This document shows, piece after piece, positions 1,820 to 10,614 of a stretch of DNA of 41,050 nt. Location: positions 1-41,050 of the forward strand of contig JAHQWI010000082.1 in assembly GCA_029856085.1 (NCBI GenBank), given 5' to 3'. Origin of the DNA: Promethearchaeia archaeon. GTDB taxonomy: Archaea > Asgardarchaeota > Lokiarchaeia > Sigyniarchaeales > SOKP01. The notes under the pieces were generated by a model. The model searched no databases. It had not been told where the DNA came from and worked only from the letters and a program-made list of their open reading frames with translations. Positions within the stretch are counted from its first letter, which is position 1. Each line of letters opens with the position of its first letter. The position numbers and the translations under genes are program-made.

Positions 1820-2986
1820 CTAAAATAGTTGTAACATTTCTTTTATTGACTCAACAACTACTTGAGTACTCATTTTAATAATTCTTGTTTTATTTTTAAA
1901 ATAATTAATGTCTGCTTTAGATTTATCAATTTCATCAAAAATGTTAAAAAACTGTTTTTGAGATTCTAATTCCATTGAATATACTCCTTTTCTCTTTATT
2001 GCATCATTCATGTTTACAAAACAACCATGATTATGAAAATTATGATTAAATGCAGGGAAATAAGTTTCCCATAATACATCTTTTAATTTATTATAAACAT
2101 TTTGTGCTAGTCGTTCACAAAATTCCTTACTTCTATTACTATAACAAAAGTAGAATGGTAATTTTCCATAATTTTTAGCCACATATTCTTGGAGATTTTG
2201 ATATACTATATCTAATTGTTTAATTGTTAGGTTTATATGAGTATGATCCGCATTAGGATTACATCTATAAAATAAGGATTTTCTGGAATATGGTATATTA
2301 TATAGTTTAATTATATTGTATACTATTCCTTCCTTAAGCCAATGAGAAAATTTGTAAGTAATTGAATTCTTTTGTAGATTGCTAATTAAATCTGCTAAAA
2401 ATTTCTCAAGTAATGAGGTTTCATGAAAATCTAGAATATAAATTGGGATATTTTCTCTTTTCCAATATTTTTCAAGGAGTTTATATAGAATTTTAGCATG
2501 CTCTGGAAGGGGGTATTGATTTAAATCATCTTCACTGCTCTTATATTCAGGAGCAAAAGTTCTTCTCCAATAACGATTTAAATTTGTTCCATTCCTTAGA
2601 TAATATCCTGATTTATTTTTTTTATTTGGGTTTATGAAACCATAGGGATTCATCAAAGGAAAAAAAATTAAAATCTGATCTTCTTTCAAAATTTCATCGA
2701 GATGAACTATTGATTTATCAATCATATATAGGAACTCTATAGTTCCAAAGAGGCCGTTGTATTCATTATGTTGAGCCCCAACAAACACTTTTATAAATCT
2801 AATCTCTTCAGAATTCAATGATTTTGCGATTATGATAACTGGAATTTTACCTTCTGATATTTCAAATTCAAAATAATGGATATCTTTTAAATTTGAACCA
2901 ATTTTTAGCTTATTCAAGATTTTGCCAAATAATTTTCTTCTATTAGGCAAATCCAATAATTCCTTTAAAATTTCCTTATTTATCAT
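1820..2986 (-). CDS. M14-like zinc carboxypeptidase / AstE-like hydrolase
   Basis: A probable metallo-carboxypeptidase or deacylase of the M14 superfamily, 388 residues, cytosolic (no signal peptide). Visible landmarks in order: GAQHNEYNG (70-78, first zinc site), MNPYGF, the substrate-binding NGTNLNRYW region, DFHETS (second zinc His near 188), and a late YSMELES that would supply the catalytic Glu near residue 340. An oddity is that the first zinc motif reads His-x-Glu (H73, E75) instead of the usual HxxE. It lies 3 nt downstream of the ATP-grasp gene on the same strand, so the two are almost certainly co-transcribed, suggesting one enzyme makes an amide or peptide bond and the other removes it. 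Confidence 0.8.
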   Translation of the reverse strand: MINKEILKELLDLPNRRKLFGKILNKLKIGSNLKDIHYFEFEISEGKIPVIIIAKSLNSEEIRFIKVFVGAQHNEYNGLFGTIEFLYMIDKSIVHLDEILKEDQILIFFPLMNPYGFINPNKKNKSGYYLRNGTNLNRYWRRTFAPEYKSSEDDLNQYPLPEHAKILYKLLEKYWKRENIPIYILDFHETSLLEKFLADLISNLQKNSITYKFSHWLKEGIVYNIIKLYNIPYSRKSLFYRCNPNADHTHINLTIKQLDIVYQNLQEYVAKNYGKLPFYFCYSNRSKEFCERLAQNVYNKLKDVLWETYFPAFNHNFHNHGCFVNMNDAIKRKGVYSMELESQKQFFNIFDEIDKSKADINYFKNKTRIIKMSTQVVVESIKEMLQLF

Positions 2987-2989
2987 AAA

Positions 2990-4438
2990 CTAAGCAATAA
3001 CTTCATTCCATTTAGAGAAATTTACAATTCTTTTATAATTTTTGACAATATTAGCAAATATTACACAACCAATACAAAACATATTTACAAAATCTTCTTC
3101 AGTTAAGTTTAGTAATTCACTTGTCTCTTTAGAAAAACCGATGCCTCGTTTCACTTCAATTTGACCATTATATCCTGATAAGTTAACAACAAATTCTTCC
3201 TTATTCAACCCAACTGTAAAATTCCCCCGTGCGATTCTTCCTAATCCTCCAATCGGTATAACCATTCCTTTACGTTGAGCTAAATATATCCTTAAGTCAA
3301 ATGTATGTTTTCCCCCACTCCAATCAATTAAAGAAAAATTGGCCTTTTCTTGTATAGTGTATGGATACGGATTACGATTTTTCATAAATTTAGCAAAAAA
3401 CTCGTTCTTGCTTGTCTCAATAATATTTTTTAAATTAGCTGGTTGTTCATCTTTAGAAACAGGGATAACCCCAGCCCCACCTGATCCTCCACTAGGTTTA
3501 ATAATAAATGATTTATTATAATTCTTTAAAAGATAACTTAACTTATCTATTAAATCTTTATCATCAAAAGCTTTAGTAAATAGAAGGTATCTAAGATTAT
3601 ATTTTCTTAAAATATCTTTACTAAGAAAGCTCGCGAGATATGTTAAAGATTTATCATCTGTAACTTTGAAAATTGGGTTTACAATTATTGTTTTAATATT
3701 GCGAAAATCTTTTTTTATCTGCTTATGAAAATTTTTATTGTTTATACGTCTTGTAATGCCATCACCGATTAAAACACTTATTTCTTCACCTTTATATTTA
3801 ATAAAATTCTCAGAAAATGAGAGGGAAGTAGAGAGTTGTCTATAATCTGCTATTAGAAAAATGATATTAGCTTTAAAATCGATATTAAAACTTTCTCTGT
3901 TGAAAATTTTAACACTATGTCCTTCTGATTTGAGCGTTTTTCTGAAATATTCTATCATGATTATTTTTTCATGGATTAAAGCATCATTAACCGGTACTCC
4001 AATTAATACAAAAACTTTATCATCTTTTCTTTCATTTTTCTTAAGTGCTTGATAGATAGCTTCAAGGTATCCATTATATAATAGGGCTTGCTGTTTTTTA
4101 GTAATAATAGAAAGTCCTCTATGTGATCCGCCATTCGTTTCTAAAAGAAAAAATTTTTTTCCTTCAGGTTCATCAGATACCATGAAATCGATACTCCCAG
4201 AGTAAAAGCAGTCGTTATTAGCTAGAATATTGTCTTTATTTCTTTTCATCTTCTTTAATGCTTTATCTCTAATAAGATCTACAAAAAAATCCTGCTGTGA
4301 AGCTCTTAATTCTGCGAAAGATACCAAATCTAAGCCTAATGAGTTTCCAAGTTTGATTAATTCAAGATCAGAGTCTGTAATAGTGGAAGACATTAATTTA
4401 AGAAACTTAGTAAGCAAATCCTCTTCCATATAAACCAT
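2990..4438 (-). CDS. ATP-grasp amide/peptide ligase family protein
   Basis: A 482-residue protein with ATP-grasp features: IIKPSGGSGGAGV (about 311-322) is the glycine-rich ATP-binding loop, DLRIYLAQ (about 378) matches the DxR strand, and RGNFTVGLN followed by NLSGYNG resembles the segment after it. A LLETNGG motif at 98-104, preceded by SIDFM, looks like the metal-binding D...ExN strand that normally comes last in ATP-grasp proteins, so the fold may be permuted or extended. ATP-grasp ligases couple ATP hydrolysis to amide-bond formation between a carboxylate and an amine. The substrate is unknown. A second in-frame ATG at 4429 is an alternative start. The M14-like gene follows after 3 nt. 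Confidence 0.75.
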   Translation of the reverse strand: MVYMEEDLLTKFLKLMSSTITDSDLELIKLGNSLGLDLVSFAELRASQQDFFVDLIRDKALKKMKRNKDNILANNDCFYSGSIDFMVSDEPEGKKFFLLETNGGSHRGLSIITKKQQALLYNGYLEAIYQALKKNERKDDKVFVLIGVPVNDALIHEKIIMIEYFRKTLKSEGHSVKIFNRESFNIDFKANIIFLIADYRQLSTSLSFSENFIKYKGEEISVLIGDGITRRINNKNFHKQIKKDFRNIKTIIVNPIFKVTDDKSLTYLASFLSKDILRKYNLRYLLFTKAFDDKDLIDKLSYLLKNYNKSFIIKPSGGSGGAGVIPVSKDEQPANLKNIIETSKNEFFAKFMKNRNPYPYTIQEKANFSLIDWSGGKHTFDLRIYLAQRKGMVIPIGGLGRIARGNFTVGLNKEEFVVNLSGYNGQIEVKRGIGFSKETSELLNLTEEDFVNMFCIGCVIFANIVKNYKRIVNFSKWNEVIA

Positions 4439-4575
4439 TCAATATTATAGTTATATAATAATTCTAATACAATCTTATTTTATAATTTTTTACTAAATAA
4501 ATTCCTCATTCTTATTATTTTAATAAATTAGAACAAGAAATCTTGGATTTTAGTTATTTAAATTCATAGAAATAA

Positions 4576-5808
4576 CTATAAGTATAAATAACCTTGATGA
4601 TTACCTTTTGTAGATAATCTAAGACTCCCAAGCAAGATTTTTTTTATTTGAAGTTGCTGTTTATAAGTCAAGTCTGAAAAAAGTAATATAAAGTTTTTCT
4701 CAACATTTATAGTAAAAAGAAGTCCAATTTCCACTAATTTAGAATTTTCTGTTAATAAACCAATTATTACATAATGATAAGGTAAATTCACTAATTCATT
4801 AATATTTATTTCTGTTTCAACAATTTCGTCTGTTTCCGTATCATAATCAGTTTTTATAAATTTCATATCATTTAACGGGATAGAAATTTTTCTAAAAACC
4901 TCAAACTTCTTTGAAAATTGACTTTGTCTTAGAAATCTTCTTTCATCTTTATCTCTTTCATAGAAATATTCATTTACATCCTTTATCAAATACATTTTTC
5001 TATTTTTTCTTTGATTTGAGGCTGTCTTCTCAATATCCTTTAATTCTTCAATAGTATCATCATGAAAAGCAATTAAAACATCTGGATCTACTGTTTTTAT
5101 GAAAAAATTCTTATATAGGATACCTGCTTCAGTTTTTATCCAACCATCAGTATCAATCAAAATAAAATCAATATTTTTATGTTCTGCGATGTAATCATCA
5201 ATCATTTTCCTACATGAAAGTGATACAATGTATTTATAATCACCCTTAGGGTATGTTGCTCCAATAAATACAGTTTTTTCGGAATGGATATTTTTACTCG
5301 AAATAATATATTCTTTTATTGTACCTAAATTGAGCGTGGTAGGAATATAAATAATTTGTTGTCCAAGATCTGAATCTAGGTATCCTCCTTTTAATCCTTC
5401 TTTCATAAAACTATTTGCCAAGTATTTGATGAGGGTTGTTTTTCCATTACTAAAACCTATCACCATTATTTTTAAAGGAGTTTCTTTTTCCTTTTTTAGT
5501 TCTTTTAATATCTCACTTTTAATATCAACCCATGTTGGCGAAATTGAATTTTCTTTAACTAATTTTAGATTTTTTTCATTACTAGTATAGATTTCTAGTT
5601 TTGCATCCTCATGTGCATAGAGGGGATAACATTGGGCACTAGGTATTATTAAAACATTTTCGTCTTCAATATTGGATATATCTGATGTTGAGCTTTCCTT
5701 TTCTGGAAGAACTATCTTTCCAAAAACGTCTAATTTTCCCTCTAATAATGTTACTCTCGCGGGTCCTTTTACTATTAAAGTATTTCCTTTATCAATATTC
5801 TTAATCAT
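4576..5808 (-). CDS. Clp1/Grc3-like polynucleotide kinase family protein
   Basis: A 410-residue protein with an N-terminal beta-rich domain (1-90), a central P-loop domain (about 112-300) and a C-terminal beta domain, the layout of Clp1/Grc3 RNA 5'-kinases. Landmarks are the P-loop GFSNGKTTL (118-126), YLDSDLGQQ near 143 (the Clp1 DxDxGQ signature), IDTDGWI near 218 and a lid-like arginine-rich stretch (RRFLRQSQFSKKF). In the family this enzyme phosphorylates RNA 5'-OH ends. The Walker A motif is one residue shorter than GxxxxGK(S/T), so activity is less certain; it could be a structural homologue. It is upstream of the ATP-grasp gene on the same strand with a 137-nt gap. Confidence 0.8.
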   Translation of the reverse strand: MIKNIDKGNTLIVKGPARVTLLEGKLDVFGKIVLPEKESSTSDISNIEDENVLIIPSAQCYPLYAHEDAKLEIYTSNEKNLKLVKENSISPTWVDIKSEILKELKKEKETPLKIMVIGFSNGKTTLIKYLANSFMKEGLKGGYLDSDLGQQIIYIPTTLNLGTIKEYIISSKNIHSEKTVFIGATYPKGDYKYIVSLSCRKMIDDYIAEHKNIDFILIDTDGWIKTEAGILYKNFFIKTVDPDVLIAFHDDTIEELKDIEKTASNQRKNRKMYLIKDVNEYFYERDKDERRFLRQSQFSKKFEVFRKISIPLNDMKFIKTDYDTETDEIVETEININELVNLPYHYVIIGLLTENSKLVEIGLLFTINVEKNFILLFSDLTYKQQLQIKKILLGSLRLSTKGNHQGYLYL

Positions 5809-5907
5809 GAGTTATTCATCTAATATACAAATTAACTTAAAAATATTGTTCAATTACAAATTTCACTAATAAAATTAATTAATTCTGAAAAAATTCGAAG
5901 CTGATCT

Positions 5908-5931
5908 TGACTATCTAATATTAGATGGTCA
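5908..5931. repeat. 24-bp near-perfect palindrome
   Basis: TGACTATCTAATATTAGATGGTCA reads the same on both strands except for one mismatched pair; the inner 14 bp (5913-5926) are perfect. It lies between the end of the FmdE-like gene and the start of the Clp1-like gene. It could be an operator for a dimeric regulator or an RNA hairpin at the end of the fmdE transcript. Confidence 0.5.
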
Positions 5932-6021
5932 TTATTTTTTAACCATATTTTTCTTTTATTTTTAAAAAAACGGAAAATAGAGAGTTTGAACGTCATAAAT
6001 TGACAAAATATAATTCTTTAT

Positions 6022-6582
6022 TTATTTTCTCTGAGCTTTATAGCAAGGAATACACATACTGCTGTTCTCATAAAACATAAGTCTACTATTCATAGTAGGT
6101 TCACCACAAATGTCACAAGGAATAGAGTCTTCTATCTCAGCTAGACTGGGGGGATTAAAATCTATTTCGTAGATATTAAATACCTTTTCGGGCTTCGAAT
6201 CGAGTAATTGTTTAATTTTTTCATGTTTTGATTTTTTTTTATCTTCAAAAACTTTATCTTTAATAGATAGTTTAATAGCTTTTTCAGTTTCCCTATTATA
6301 AAAATAATAATTGAGTTTACCATAGTCTTGGTGAATTAAGTTGCCCTTACCGTAGGTGACTCCGAGTAACGACTGGATCGCGTCTACACTACAGTTATCA
6401 TTCTCAACAACCGCAACCACCTCTTCATTGGGAGAATAATTGAAACCATGTTCTAACACATACTTAGCTGCTAAAACACCTATAGCTAAGCCGGGACATA
6501 TATGTCCATGAAATCTTGTTGCCTTTTCCATTAATTCTTTAGTTTCCATTTGAGGTAATATAATTTTTTTGTAAAATTCCAA
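6022..6582 (-). CDS. fmdE: FmdE-like protein (formylmethanofuran dehydrogenase subunit E family)
   Basis: A 186-residue FmdE-family protein. The family core is clear: RFHGHICPGLAIG (24-36) with His25, His27 and Cys29, then ENDNCSVDAIQ and LGVTYGKGN. The C-terminal part is a four-cysteine zinc finger (C156, C159, C177, C180). FmdE is often found with tungsten/molybdenum formylmethanofuran dehydrogenases, but many stand-alone members exist and their role is not settled; some are thought to handle metals or the pterin cofactor. The catalytic subunits are not in this window. The gene is divergent from the Mut7-C gene, with 71 bp between the starts. Confidence 0.88.
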   Translation of the reverse strand: MEFYKKIILPQMETKELMEKATRFHGHICPGLAIGVLAAKYVLEHGFNYSPNEEVVAVVENDNCSVDAIQSLLGVTYGKGNLIHQDYGKLNYYFYNRETEKAIKLSIKDKVFEDKKKSKHEKIKQLLDSKPEKVFNIYEIDFNPPSLAEIEDSIPCDICGEPTMNSRLMFYENSSMCIPCYKAQRK

Positions 6583-6653
6583 TTATATAATTTATTACAT
6601 GTTTTAAATTTATTTAATATAGAAGAATTTAATTAAATAATAGGCTAAATGAT

Positions 6654-7148
6654 ATGAAATTTTTAGTTGATTCAATGTTAGGTAAATTAGCTCGATTCCT
6701 AAGAATGTTTGGCTATGATACTTTATATGCAAACGATTTAGTTGAATACTTCAAGATAGATCCTGTCCCTGACGAAAAATTACTAGCATATGCAAAGAAA
6801 ACTAATAGGTTTGTTATAACAAAAGATTACCCGTTTTATAAGAGTTATACTGAAAATGCCATACATTTGAAAGGAGAGGGAGTATATAATTACATAAATC
6901 AATTAAAAGAAAATCTAAGATTGAATTTTAAATTCAATATTCAGAATGCAAGATGTTCTATCTGCAATTCAAGAATGAAAAAAGTTAAGGAAAAAAGCGA
7001 TATTAAACATCTTGCTTTACGAGAAACTTTTAATCAATATAATGACTTTTATCAATGTTTAAATTCGCAATGTAAAAAAATCTATTGGAAAGGTTCTCAT
7101 ATTGATGATATTGAGAATAGATTAGGAATAGATTCTATTCAGGATTAA
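6654..7148 (+). CDS. Mut7-C RNase domain protein (PIN-like, with zinc ribbon)
   Basis: A 164-residue archaeal Mut7-C (DUF82) protein. The N-terminal PIN-like fold shows Asp6 (FLVDSMLGKLARFLRMFGYD), a conserved basic LGKLARxLR patch, and ITKD with Asp58, giving acidic residues suited to a metal-dependent nuclease. A zinc ribbon follows with C101-x2-C104 and C135-x4-C140. Members are predicted RNases, the domain being named after nematode Mut-7; the substrate here is unknown. It ends 5 nt from the end of the convergent small gene. Confidence 0.88.
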   Translation: MKFLVDSMLGKLARFLRMFGYDTLYANDLVEYFKIDPVPDEKLLAYAKKTNRFVITKDYPFYKSYTENAIHLKGEGVYNYINQLKENLRLNFKFNIQNARCSICNSRMKKVKEKSDIKHLALRETFNQYNDFYQCLNSQCKKIYWKGSHIDDIENRLGIDSIQD

Positions 7149-7153
7149 TAAAA

Positions 7154-7390
7154 TCACACTTGCTTTTTTTGAAAATATTTTTCTTTAATTTCCATGAATC
7201 TTTGTTTAGTTTGTTCAACAAGTTCAGTGTAATTTCCTTTCATATACATATTATGGGCCTGATTTAATAATTCAAGGCATTTTCGATATTCAACATTCTT
7301 GAAATGATTTTCTGATAAAGATACTAAGTAGTCACCCTTTTTCTTATAGAATTCAATGAATTGGGCCGAAGTATCAATTTTCCTATCCAT
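7154..7390 (-). CDS. small helical protein of unknown function
   Basis: A 78-residue protein I do not recognise. It is strongly alpha-helical by composition and ends in a lysine-rich tail. Two helices (about 38-52 and 54-72) separated by GNYTELVEQ resemble a single TPR-like hairpin, which would suit protein binding. It converges on the Mut7-C gene and lies downstream of a Gfo/Idh remnant on the same strand. A start ATG and protein-like composition support coding. Confidence 0.55.
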   Translation of the reverse strand: MDRKIDTSAQFIEFYKKKGDYLVSLSENHFKNVEYRKCLELLNQAHNMYMKGNYTELVEQTKQRFMEIKEKYFQKKQV

Positions 7391-7459
7391 TTTATTTTAA
7401 CTACATAAAATCTAGTTTAAATAATATAGTATTTTGTGTTCTAAATTATAATAACTTAA

Positions 7460-7702
7460 CTAAAATTTTCTTCCACTATTTCTATTTTCAGAGATAGTCT
7501 GCTTTTCTGCAGAATTCTTCCATATCGACAATAATATTTTATAATCGAGACTCATCTGCTGCAACTTTTCACGTCTCTTTTTTATGGGTTCTGCTATGGC
7601 TATAAAAATTAATTTTCTTCTATTTTTTAGAGCATAATTTCCATAAACATCAAAACCTCTTCTTCCAGCACCTAGTAGTACTGCTGTAATCGGTAGTTTC
7701 AA
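7460..7702 (-). pseudogene. N-terminal remnant of a Gfo/Idh/MocA oxidoreductase
   Basis: The first 50 residues match the start of Gfo/Idh/MocA-family NAD(P)-dependent sugar dehydrogenases: ITAVLLGAGRRG is the Rossmann loop, followed by YGNYALKN, then FIAIAEPIKKRREKLQQ, the typical AEP...RREK motif. Those enzymes have about 350-400 residues; this frame stops after 80, and only 69 nt separate it from the next gene. The end of the frame (SIWKNSAEK onward) does not resemble the family, while a neighbouring frame reads ILQKSRLS just after the WK, as a functional copy might. I read it as a decayed gene with at least one frameshift and loss of most of its body. Confidence 0.7.
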
Positions 7703-7767
7703 AGTAAATGCTTGATGAAATATTTCAATTGAATTTTAAATTCTAAACCAATGCCTTTGTAATTAAT

Positions 7768-8013
7768 TTAATCTATCTTATTGTTATCTTTTTTGTTTTC
7801 AAGTTGTTCTCTGTAATCAAGAACAATTTTAGCAATTTCAACTAAATAATTAACAGGGTTCATAGTCTTTCCACATCTACTACATCTATAATCAATCATA
7901 CCTTCTATTGAAACCATGGTTCCATCTTCACAAAAAGCGCATTGTTCAAAAGACCATCGATCTACTACTTTTATAATTGCTTTAATAAATTTTTCTTGGA
8001 GTAACCCTGTCAT
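7768..8013 (-). CDS. small zinc-ribbon protein
   Basis: An 81-residue protein with a central zinc ribbon, C25-x2-C28 and C44-x2-C47, flanked by an N-terminal helix and a C-terminal charged helix (DYREQLENKK). No family is recognised. It lies between the Gfo/Idh remnant and aroC, all on the minus strand, but the spacing (95 nt from aroC) does not prove co-transcription. Such proteins often bind nucleic acid or act as assembly factors; nothing here fixes the role. Confidence 0.6.
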   Translation of the reverse strand: MTGLLQEKFIKAIIKVVDRWSFEQCAFCEDGTMVSIEGMIDYRCSRCGKTMNPVNYLVEIAKIVLDYREQLENKKDNNKID

Positions 8014-8108
8014 AATAAACCATATCTCTTTTTAATCTTACTGTAGTTAATAATTTTTTTTGAACTTTATTTTTTTTAATTAAGTAATACTTAATTATGT
8101 GGATTCTT

Positions 8109-9227
8109 CTAAGATTTAAAAACTCTTGGAACAAAACCATCAATTAATAAACAATCAAGTAATACAACCGATGTCATAGCTTCAACTACTGGAATTACCC
8201 TTGGCACTATACACGGATCATGACGACCAGAGAATTCAATCTCTATATTTTCCATTGTGTCAATATTTACAGTTTTTTGAGGAATACCAATAGATGCAGT
8301 AGGCTTTACAGCAACCGTAAACTCAATAGGCATACCTATAGAAATTCCACCAATAATTCCACCAGAATCATTTTTAATAGTTTGTATCTCACCATCTTTG
8401 AGGATCCAAGGATCGTTATGCTCAGAACCTTTCATACTCGAAGCTTTAAACCCTGCTCCAAATTCTATGCCCTTTATTGCTGGGATTGAGAATATTGCTT
8501 TGCTTATGTTTGATTCGATACTATTAAAGATAGGACCACCCTTTCCTGCTGGAAACCCACTCACTATGCATTTTACCAATCCACCAATTGAATCTTTTTG
8601 AGCTTTAACCTCATTTATCAAGATTTCCATAAGTTTTGATTTTTCTTGATTAAGTGTTCTAACAGAGGAATTCTCTCGTATTTCAAGAAGTCCCTCATAA
8701 TCGTTTGTATTATACACTTCCTCATCGATAATATTTCCAATGCTCTTAGTATAAGCAAATATTGTAATATTATATTTTTTGAGGATTTGTTTAGCTATTG
8801 CTCCAGCCATAACGAATCCTGCAGTTATCCTCCCAGAAAATCGTCCTGATCCTCTATAATCATAATAATCCCCGTATTTCTTTAACGCAGAATAATCTAC
8901 ATGAGAAGGACGCAAAATTTTTTTAAATTCTTTATATTTTGAAGAATCTACATCTTTATTTTCAATAGTCAAACAAATAGGTGCTCCTGTTGTTTTTTTA
9001 TTGAAGATACCTGATAGAATTTTAACTTTATCTTCCTCCATACGAGGTGTTGTAAGAGATGATTGTCCGGGTTTTCTCATATCTAATTCTTGTTGGATTA
9101 ATTCTAAATCTAACTCAATCCCTGCTGGAGTACCATCTACGATTATCCCAATTAAATCACCATGACTCTCTCCGAATGACGTTATTTTAAAGAATGTTCC
9201 AAGAGTATTATCTACCACAAGAATCAC
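8109..9227 (-). CDS. aroC: chorismate synthase
   Basis: Chorismate synthase converts 5-enolpyruvylshikimate-3-phosphate to chorismate using reduced FMN, the last shikimate-pathway step. The protein has about 370 residues and the family landmarks: SFGESHG near 17-23, RPSHVDYSALKKYG with DYRGSGRFSGR, and SGRHDPCIVPRVIPVVEAM near the C-terminus. The open frame begins with GTG at 9227; a second GTG at 9218 gives MVDNTLGTFFK, closer to the usual family start. The gene is divergent from aroA, the preceding enzyme, with a shared 70-bp promoter region, so the two are probably expressed together. Confidence 0.95.
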   Translation of the reverse strand: MILVVDNTLGTFFKITSFGESHGDLIGIIVDGTPAGIELDLELIQQELDMRKPGQSSLTTPRMEEDKVKILSGIFNKKTTGAPICLTIENKDVDSSKYKEFKKILRPSHVDYSALKKYGDYYDYRGSGRFSGRITAGFVMAGAIAKQILKKYNITIFAYTKSIGNIIDEEVYNTNDYEGLLEIRENSSVRTLNQEKSKLMEILINEVKAQKDSIGGLVKCIVSGFPAGKGGPIFNSIESNISKAIFSIPAIKGIEFGAGFKASSMKGSEHNDPWILKDGEIQTIKNDSGGIIGGISIGMPIEFTVAVKPTASIGIPQKTVNIDTMENIEIEFSGRHDPCIVPRVIPVVEAMTSVVLLDCLLIDGFVPRVFKS

Positions 9228-9297
9228 ATCTACTAAAACTTAATTTTACAATAATATTTAATTAATATTAAATCTATTATTTTCTATTTATCATTTA

Positions 9298-10614
9298 ATG
9301 GATTTGGAAATAATACCATTAATAAGTAATTTAAATGGTGAAATCACAGCACCTGGGTCTAAAAGCTATACACACAGGGCTTTTATTGCTGCAAGTCTAG
9401 CTGAAGGGATCTCTGTAATTAAAAAACCTTTAACAATTGGAGATTCAGCAATAACAATTAATAACTTAAAAGCTCTAGGGATTAAAATATTAAAATCTAG
9501 CGAAAATTCTTATGTCGTTAAATGTGATAAAAAAGGATTTAAACCAATCAAGAAACCTCTAGATTGTAAAAATTCTGGAACCTCCTTTAGAATTTTTTGC
9601 GCTTTAAGTCTTTTAGTTAAAGGAGGGCTTCTATTGACAGGTGAATTTTTAGAAAGGAAAAGACCAATTATTCCACTCCTCAATGCTTTAGAGGCTTTAG
9701 GAGGAAAATTTAAAATATCAGAGGATAAAATTAAGATAGAACGTAAGAAAATGTTATGTAATAAAATAAAAATCCCTGGAGATATTAGTTCTCAGTTCAT
9801 AACCGCCTTACTATTTATCTGTCCTCTATTAACATGTAAGGATAAAGATTTCATTGAAATAGAGCTAACAACTCCATTAGTTTCTATTCCATATATAAAA
9901 ATTACTCTAGATGTATTAAACACATTTGGAATTAATATTCAAGAAGATCTAGAAGGAGGGAAATTTTATATAACAATTGAACAAAATTATAGGGCTCAAT
10001 CATATGAAATTCCTGGGGATTTCTCCTCATCAGCATTCATTATCGCAGCAACCGTTTTATCTAGTGAACCTACTAAAGTTGTAATAAATAATTTAAGCAT
10101 GGAAAATTACCAAGGAGACAAAAAGATTATTGAGATTCTAAGGGAAATGGGTGCTGATATCGAATTTGATGAAAATCAAAAACAAGTAATTGTACGGGGG
10201 GATTTATCCCATAATACCTTAAAAGGACTAGAAGTTGATTGTGGTGATATCCCAGACTTATTCCCGATTCTATCCGTTATTGGGGCATTTGCAGAGGGTG
10301 AAACTGTTCTCTATAATGCTGGAAATCTTCGAATAAAAGAAAGTGACCGAATTTCTGCTATGGCAAGAGAATTAAAAAAAATGGGTGTTAGTGTCAAAGA
10401 AGAAGATGAAAAATTAACAATTTATCACTGCGATAAATTAAATGGAGCGATAATAGATCATGAATATGATCATAGAGTAGCAATGGCATGCACTATTGCT
10501 GCCTTATATGCTTCTTCAAAATCTCATATAAAAAATATTGAAGTTGTAAAAGATTCTTACCCTTCCTTTTTAGATGATCTACAAAAATTAGGTGTTCAAA
10601 TAGAAACAAGGTAA
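9298..10614 (+). CDS. aroA: 3-phosphoshikimate 1-carboxyvinyltransferase (EPSP synthase)
   Basis: EPSP synthase joins shikimate-3-phosphate and phosphoenolpyruvate. The 438-residue protein shows the N-terminal PGSKSYTHRA motif (19-28) that binds both substrates, NSGTSFRIF, the PGDISSQFITALL and PGDFSSSAF repeats of the two-domain fold, and RIKESDRISAMA (from about 346) with a late DHRVAMA. All key regions are present and the length is normal. It pairs divergently with aroC. Its 3' end converges on the ribosomal operon, with 12 nt between the two stops. Confidence 0.96.
   Translation: MDLEIIPLISNLNGEITAPGSKSYTHRAFIAASLAEGISVIKKPLTIGDSAITINNLKALGIKILKSSENSYVVKCDKKGFKPIKKPLDCKNSGTSFRIFCALSLLVKGGLLLTGEFLERKRPIIPLLNALEALGGKFKISEDKIKIERKKMLCNKIKIPGDISSQFITALLFICPLLTCKDKDFIEIELTTPLVSIPYIKITLDVLNTFGINIQEDLEGGKFYITIEQNYRAQSYEIPGDFSSSAFIIAATVLSSEPTKVVINNLSMENYQGDKKIIEILREMGADIEFDENQKQVIVRGDLSHNTLKGLEVDCGDIPDLFPILSVIGAFAEGETVLYNAGNLRIKESDRISAMARELKKMGVSVKEEDEKLTIYHCDKLNGAIIDHEYDHRVAMACTIAALYASSKSHIKNIEVVKDSYPSFLDDLQKLGVQIETR

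Follow-up and report, generated by a model that had tools for sequence, protein, structure and literature searches.

Gene pair at the locus

The window (the whole stretch of 41,050 nucleotides analyzed here, from a Promethearchaeia archaeon, a Lokiarchaeon) carries two genes on the minus strand, a ligase gene followed by a peptidase-like gene (Table 1). Their open reading frames, coordinates, strand, and 3-nt spacing agree with an earlier, preliminary description of this DNA. Neither reading frame is a chance one, since homologs of the ligase were found in 61 and of the peptidase in 35 of the 228 genomes of the phylum (a few of the matches being weak, remote, or fragments), and dN/dS was low, 0.10–0.19 for the ligase and 0.15–0.29 for the peptidase, indicating purifying selection. 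Nearly all of the homologs occur within the window's own family, f1.

Neither protein reached a Pfam gathering score. The best indications were sub-threshold matches of the ligase to ATP-grasp models (PF14398, E = 1.6e-4) and of the peptidase to PF00246 (E = 0.039), so that the family assignments made in the preliminary description, ATP-grasp and M14, were good guesses from motifs. Both folds were borne out by profile and structure work.

The ligase is immediately preceded, on the minus strand, by a gene for a Clp1-type polynucleotide kinase (window positions 4576–5808; PF16575, 1.8e-25), the synteny of which is kept in family f1. Another minus-strand gene (6022–6582) encodes a fusion of an FmdE-like domain with a DksA/TraR zinc finger.

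Table 1. Coordinates of the gene pair, its motifs, and related loci in other genomes (window positions unless a locus is named)
Feature	Position	Strand	Description
Ligase gene, 482 aa	2990-4438	-	Predicted circularly permuted ATP-grasp
Peptidase-like gene, 388 aa	1820-2986	-	M14-fold zinc-peptidase-like protein
Intergenic gap, 3 nt	2987..2989	-	-23 to +51 nt in relatives
DNA for ligase residues ~84-103 (D-F-M...E-T-N-G-G)	4129..4189	-	Segment that is C-terminal in unpermuted ATP-grasps
DNA for ligase residues ~310-407	3219..3510	-	K314 strand, G-loop GGSGGAG, IQE364, D381-L-R383, GGLxR401
DNA for Q72-H73-N74-E75	2762..2773	-	Altered first metal motif of the M14-fold protein
Second, canonical M14 protein in some relatives	L182:4166-5536; L177:4580 onward		Downstream of a topoisomerase/gyrase A-like gene
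Trio loci	L100:1566-5204; L142:3303-6966; L143:2694-6279; L144:4038-7693; L145:~7000-10550; L146:~4840-8370		Permuted ATP-grasp, FGase-like hydrolase, GCS2-type ligase

Permuted architecture of the ligase

Ordinary ATP-grasps, such as RimK, GshB, and TTLL, have the E-x-N metal motif last. In the window's ligase this motif lies in an N-terminal metal/substrate segment with invariant D84, M86, E100, N102, and S105, while the C-terminal half contains the invariant K314-P-x-GGSGG (the G-loop, K314-P-S-GGSGG in the window), E364, D381-L-R383, R401, and N419, as well as a nearly invariant K289. The ATP/Mg residues (two lysines, the G-loop, an acidic residue, and E-x-N) are invariant or nearly so in 29 sequences, down to 40% identity. 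The placement of E-x-N in the N-terminal part and of the lysine, G-loop, and D-x-R elements in the C-terminal half therefore points to a circular permutation.

The AlphaFold model of the ligase (pLDDT 86.9, pTM 0.89) had as its top Foldseek matches the glutathione and homoglutathione synthetases (GSS) of human, soybean, potato, and yeast (E from 4e-12 to 1e-8), followed by a putative glutathionylspermidine synthase and E. coli YgiC. The top alignments ran in sequence order over about 420 columns, while unpermuted ATP-grasps appeared lower in the list and were aligned only partially. TM-scores were only about 0.4, with large rmsd, which reflects either domain motion or real divergence. The argument for permutation rests on motif order and structure; the ligase is predicted to be a circularly permuted ATP-grasp, aligning in order to permuted GSS. 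Of the 29 members of the ligase family, only three matched PF14403 (CP_ATPgrasp; best E = 1.5e-4), and when the ligase sequence was rotated and Pfam rescanned, the unpermuted Pfam hits were no longer than before. At the sequence level, comparison with the PDB matched the ligase neither to glutathione synthetase nor to any other entry.

The corresponding motifs of human GSS, read on PDB 2hgs, are R125-S-D127-Y-M129...E144-I-N146-T-I-S149, LME399, S-E425-LG, and G446-HLL-R450. When residues were paired by motif and spacing, not by superposition, the human D127, M129, E144, N146, S149, E399, E425 (as D381), and R450 (as R401) were found to be kept in the ligase, and the counterparts of D127, M129, E144, N146, S149, E425, and R450 are invariant in its family. 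What the Mg ligands, S149, and R450, the last at the glycine-carboxylate site, do in the human enzyme has been described (PMC2845819). The ligase thus resembles the eukaryotic glutathione and homoglutathione synthetases (PDB 2hgs, 8fbz, 1m0w, and 3kaj) in motif order, overall fold, and most metal- and ATP-site residues, including probable counterparts of S149 and R450. It differs from them in the G-loop (GGSGG versus REGGGNN), in having no clear counterpart of R125 (S82 in this position by motif alignment) or E368, in the lack of an evident GSH pathway, in having a hydrolase as operon partner, and in the absence of detectable sequence similarity. Since a sequence-level match was not found, the ligase is placed outside the GSS family, with the same architecture.

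The permuted ATP-grasp fold is also that of the peptide-spermidine ligases GspSA, YgiC, and YjfC (CP_ATPgrasp). According to the product name in the E. coli annotation, GspSA combines a synthetase with an amidase that reverses its reaction in one fused protein, and in this coupling of synthesis and hydrolysis it is similar to the gene pair. However, the fused domain of GspSA is a CHAP cysteine amidase, whereas here a separate M14-fold enzyme is encoded. Moreover, HHalign comparison of the ligase with single E. coli YgiC, Gss, RimK, and GshB sequences gave no significant match; nor did HHalign comparison with single E. coli MpaA.

M14-fold protein with an altered metal motif

The model of the peptidase (pLDDT 89.0) has the M14 fold. 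Its structural matches were REP34, carboxypeptidase A, bacterial CCP-like enzymes, and relatives of AstE/AspA, with E from 8e-8 and TM-scores up to 0.65. The N-terminus is modeled as two helices and a hairpin, so that the N-terminal beta-sandwich domain of CCP is absent. The invariant residues are Q72-H73-N74-E75, N137-R138, D186-x-H188-E189, H315, H320-G-C, and E339; among them H73, E75, H188, E339, N137, and R138 are kept down to about 42% identity. The third Zn ligand (H188 in D186-x-H188), the catalytic Glu (E339), and the Asn-Arg clamp (N137-R138) were placed by secondary structure. The clamp presumably corresponds to the pair that binds the C-terminal carboxylate in carboxypeptidases.

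The remark in the preliminary description that the first zinc motif is HxE and not HxxE proved right, and Q-H-N-E is invariant across the family, being shared by all members, even the remote protein of genome G048. In the model E75 stands immediately before the helix beginning at residue 76, which is the position of Glu72 in carboxypeptidase A. Q72 is therefore located where His69 should be, and the change is best described as an H69-to-Q replacement followed directly by a His. The metal site may be completed by Q72, by H73, or by one of the invariant H315 and H320. A normal H-P-N-E motif is present in the second M14 protein of this lineage. Overall, the protein shares with family M14 (carboxypeptidase A, REP34, the CCP-like bacterial enzymes, and AstE/AspA) the fold, D-x-H, N-R, and the catalytic Glu, but it differs in Q-H-N-E, in scoring below the Pfam M14 cut-off, and in the additional invariant H315 and H320-G-C.

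Distribution, linkage, and loss of the peptidase

A search for the pair in other archaeal genomes had been suggested along with the preliminary description. Among the 228 genomes of the phylum, all 31 full-length peptidases were located directly behind a ligase and in the same orientation. Where the gap was measured within family f1, it varied from -23 to +16 nt, with a median of 3, and the genes often overlapped. The surrounding region is syntenic within this family, so adjacency alone is weak evidence there. Outside f1, genome G048 (family f2) contains the pair in a different neighborhood, 51 nt apart and with a peptidase that is truncated where the contig stops, and G054 (family f7) has the ligase without the peptidase.

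The ligase often occurs without the peptidase, with about seven changes of peptidase state on the ligase tree of 45 genomes. Truncated peptidase pseudogene remnants were found behind the ligase in G012, G015, and G018. In G014 the ligase shares 95% identity with that of the window, and a clean 1.15-kb deletion matching window positions ~1824–2968 has removed the peptidase. The peptidase depends on the ligase and not the reverse: the hydrolase is an accessory, repeated losses of which have left the ligase in place. Because synteny is mostly inherited, the weight of the linkage evidence lies on the one-way dependence together with the recurrence of the pair in G048. The pairing is biologically real.

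Several other explanations and partners were considered and rejected. A mobile-element origin was discarded because no matches were found in plasmids or viral contigs, and a defense system because PADLOC gave no match for either window protein. The second M14 protein (about 460 aa, H-P-N-E) was present in 9 of the 17 genomes without the pair's peptidase versus 3 of the 26 with it; the phylogenetic pair test gave a median p = 1, and the protein was rejected as a complement to peptidase loss. An Asgard-wide protein of about 400 aa without a Pfam match is encoded beside an HD-domain gene (L065:8098-9306, L068:1541-2755). It adjoins the ligase in G054 and lies near the pair in G048, but it is a general Asgard gene located elsewhere in f1 and was not accepted as a specific partner.

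Parallel gene trio in other Asgard archaea

Reverse search from a weak phylum match revealed a conserved gene trio in six other Asgard genomes of families f13, f25, and f26, in which a permuted ATP-grasp is accompanied by an FGase-like hydrolase (PF05013) and by a GCS2-type ligase (PF04107). In profile comparison the trio ligase matched the window ligase with 92% probability over the core RR...NP..T..K..TY...KP..GG...QE...D-x-R, and reverse search from the trio ligase returned the window's ligase family. The trio and the pair have in common the order Y-x-G-x-DF...ExN / D-x-I-RR / INP..T..K..TY / KP...G / QE / D-x-R and an adjacent metallo-hydrolase; they differ in that the hydrolase of the trio is FGase-like and a GCS2-type ligase is added. 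No relation of the FGase-like protein to the pair's M14 protein was detected by profile, and the ligase-hydrolase pairing therefore seems to have arisen with different hydrolases. The trio is probably a pathway for a peptide. Amidoligase operons were reportedly surveyed by Iyer et al. in 2009.

A further permuted ATP-grasp of 482 aa, a remote one, is encoded in G038 convergently to a RimK-like ligase (L101:2847-4295 and 4300-5214). It may represent another branch of the same superfamily.

Proposed function and alternatives

Permuted ATP-grasps of the GSS shape make small amides, namely GSH, homoglutathione, peptide-spermidine conjugates, and an intermediate of E-64 (PMC12568646). By comparison with these enzymes, the ligase would activate a small peptide or metabolite by phosphorylating one of its carboxylates, and would then couple this carboxylate with an amino acid through its amine, or with a similar amine, yielding an amide-bonded conjugate. 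The M14-fold metallo-hydrolase would then act on this conjugate, most likely hydrolyzing the same amide for recycling, quality control, or switching off. We see about an even chance that the pair functions in this way, as a permuted GSS-type ligase with an M14 hydrolase acting on its product, most likely at the same bond. This reading supposes an amide product, a small substrate common to both proteins, and a hydrolase that would be active despite its altered metal motif. R401 of the ligase, as part of a GSS-like glycine-carboxylate site, and N137-R138 of the hydrolase, as a C-terminal clamp, would suit an amino acid whose carboxylate is free. No GSH-like precursor gene is conserved beside the pair, and GCS2 was rejected as the missing partner in f1 since most genomes of this family lack a GCS2 match.

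Alternatively, the two genes could encode successive forward steps of a biosynthesis, in which the ligase makes an amide and the hydrolase trims or deprotects the product instead of reversing the reaction. That the hydrolase strictly depends on the ligase would agree with this, as would the trio of ligase, FGase-like amidohydrolase, and GCS2, which resembles a pathway. However, several losses of the hydrolase, with the ligase still under selection, are odd for an obligatory step, and we consider this explanation unlikely.

The preliminary description proposed a writer/eraser pair comparable to the eukaryotic tubulin ligases and carboxypeptidases (TTLL/CCP) or to bacterial RimK/RimB. Strict linkage and one-way dependence support the general part of this idea, an amide-forming enzyme beside an M14-type hydrolase that probably acts on its product; the two analogies fail. 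Reversible modification of a protein tail, in which the ligase would add amino acids to a side chain or C-terminus for the M14 enzyme to remove, would involve the right kind of chemistry, and R401 and N137-R138 both suggest that the amino acid handled has its carboxylate free. The ligase-plus-hydrolase logic is the same as well. But TTLL and RimK have the unpermuted motif order, and in structure comparison the ligase was nearest to GSS and YgiC, not to TTLL or RimK. PF03133, searched in 58 genomes, matched the ligase in no genome of the family and gave few matches elsewhere; the trio's ligase did match it above the cut-off, but only over the nucleotide-binding half that is shared. The ligase is likewise not a member of PF08443, and its profile does not match E. 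coli RimK. On the hydrolase side, CCP has an N-domain and H-x-x-E, whereas the M14-fold protein has neither this domain nor the canonical first metal motif. Nothing ties the pair to actin or tubulin, no gene for a protein substrate is conserved beside it, and its permuted relatives act on small molecules. Tail modification is thus distinctly unlikely. As for RimB, it is a retropepsin-like aspartic peptidase and not an M14 enzyme (PMC12239564). On the basis of motif order and models, we replace the TTLL/CCP interpretation with a predicted GSS-type permuted ligase with a linked M14-fold hydrolase.

With its first Zn ligand replaced, the hydrolase could be inactive, but the view that it is a pseudo-enzyme that has lost the His69 equivalent and regulates by binding the ligase or its product is very doubtful, because for all that Q72 occurs in every member and the gene is frequently lost, H73, E75, H188, E339, N137, and R138 are invariant to about 42% identity and purifying selection is observed.

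Implications for Asgard archaea

Little is known of the low-molecular-weight peptides and thiols in Asgard archaea, and the pair of permuted ligase and M14-fold hydrolase offers a concrete two-gene target for such a compound. We tentatively suggest that Lokiarchaeia might make a previously undescribed small peptide conjugate with a ligase of GSS architecture and degrade it with a new Q-H-N-E M14 hydrolase, and that other Asgard archaea might make a related compound with the trio. The Q-H-N-E site would be an unusual change of the metal center in an old peptidase fold. The putative GSS-type permuted ligase with its own linked hydrolase is found in the lineage nearest to eukaryotes, and the pair would test whether the architecture common to Asgard archaea and eukaryotes results from descent or convergence.
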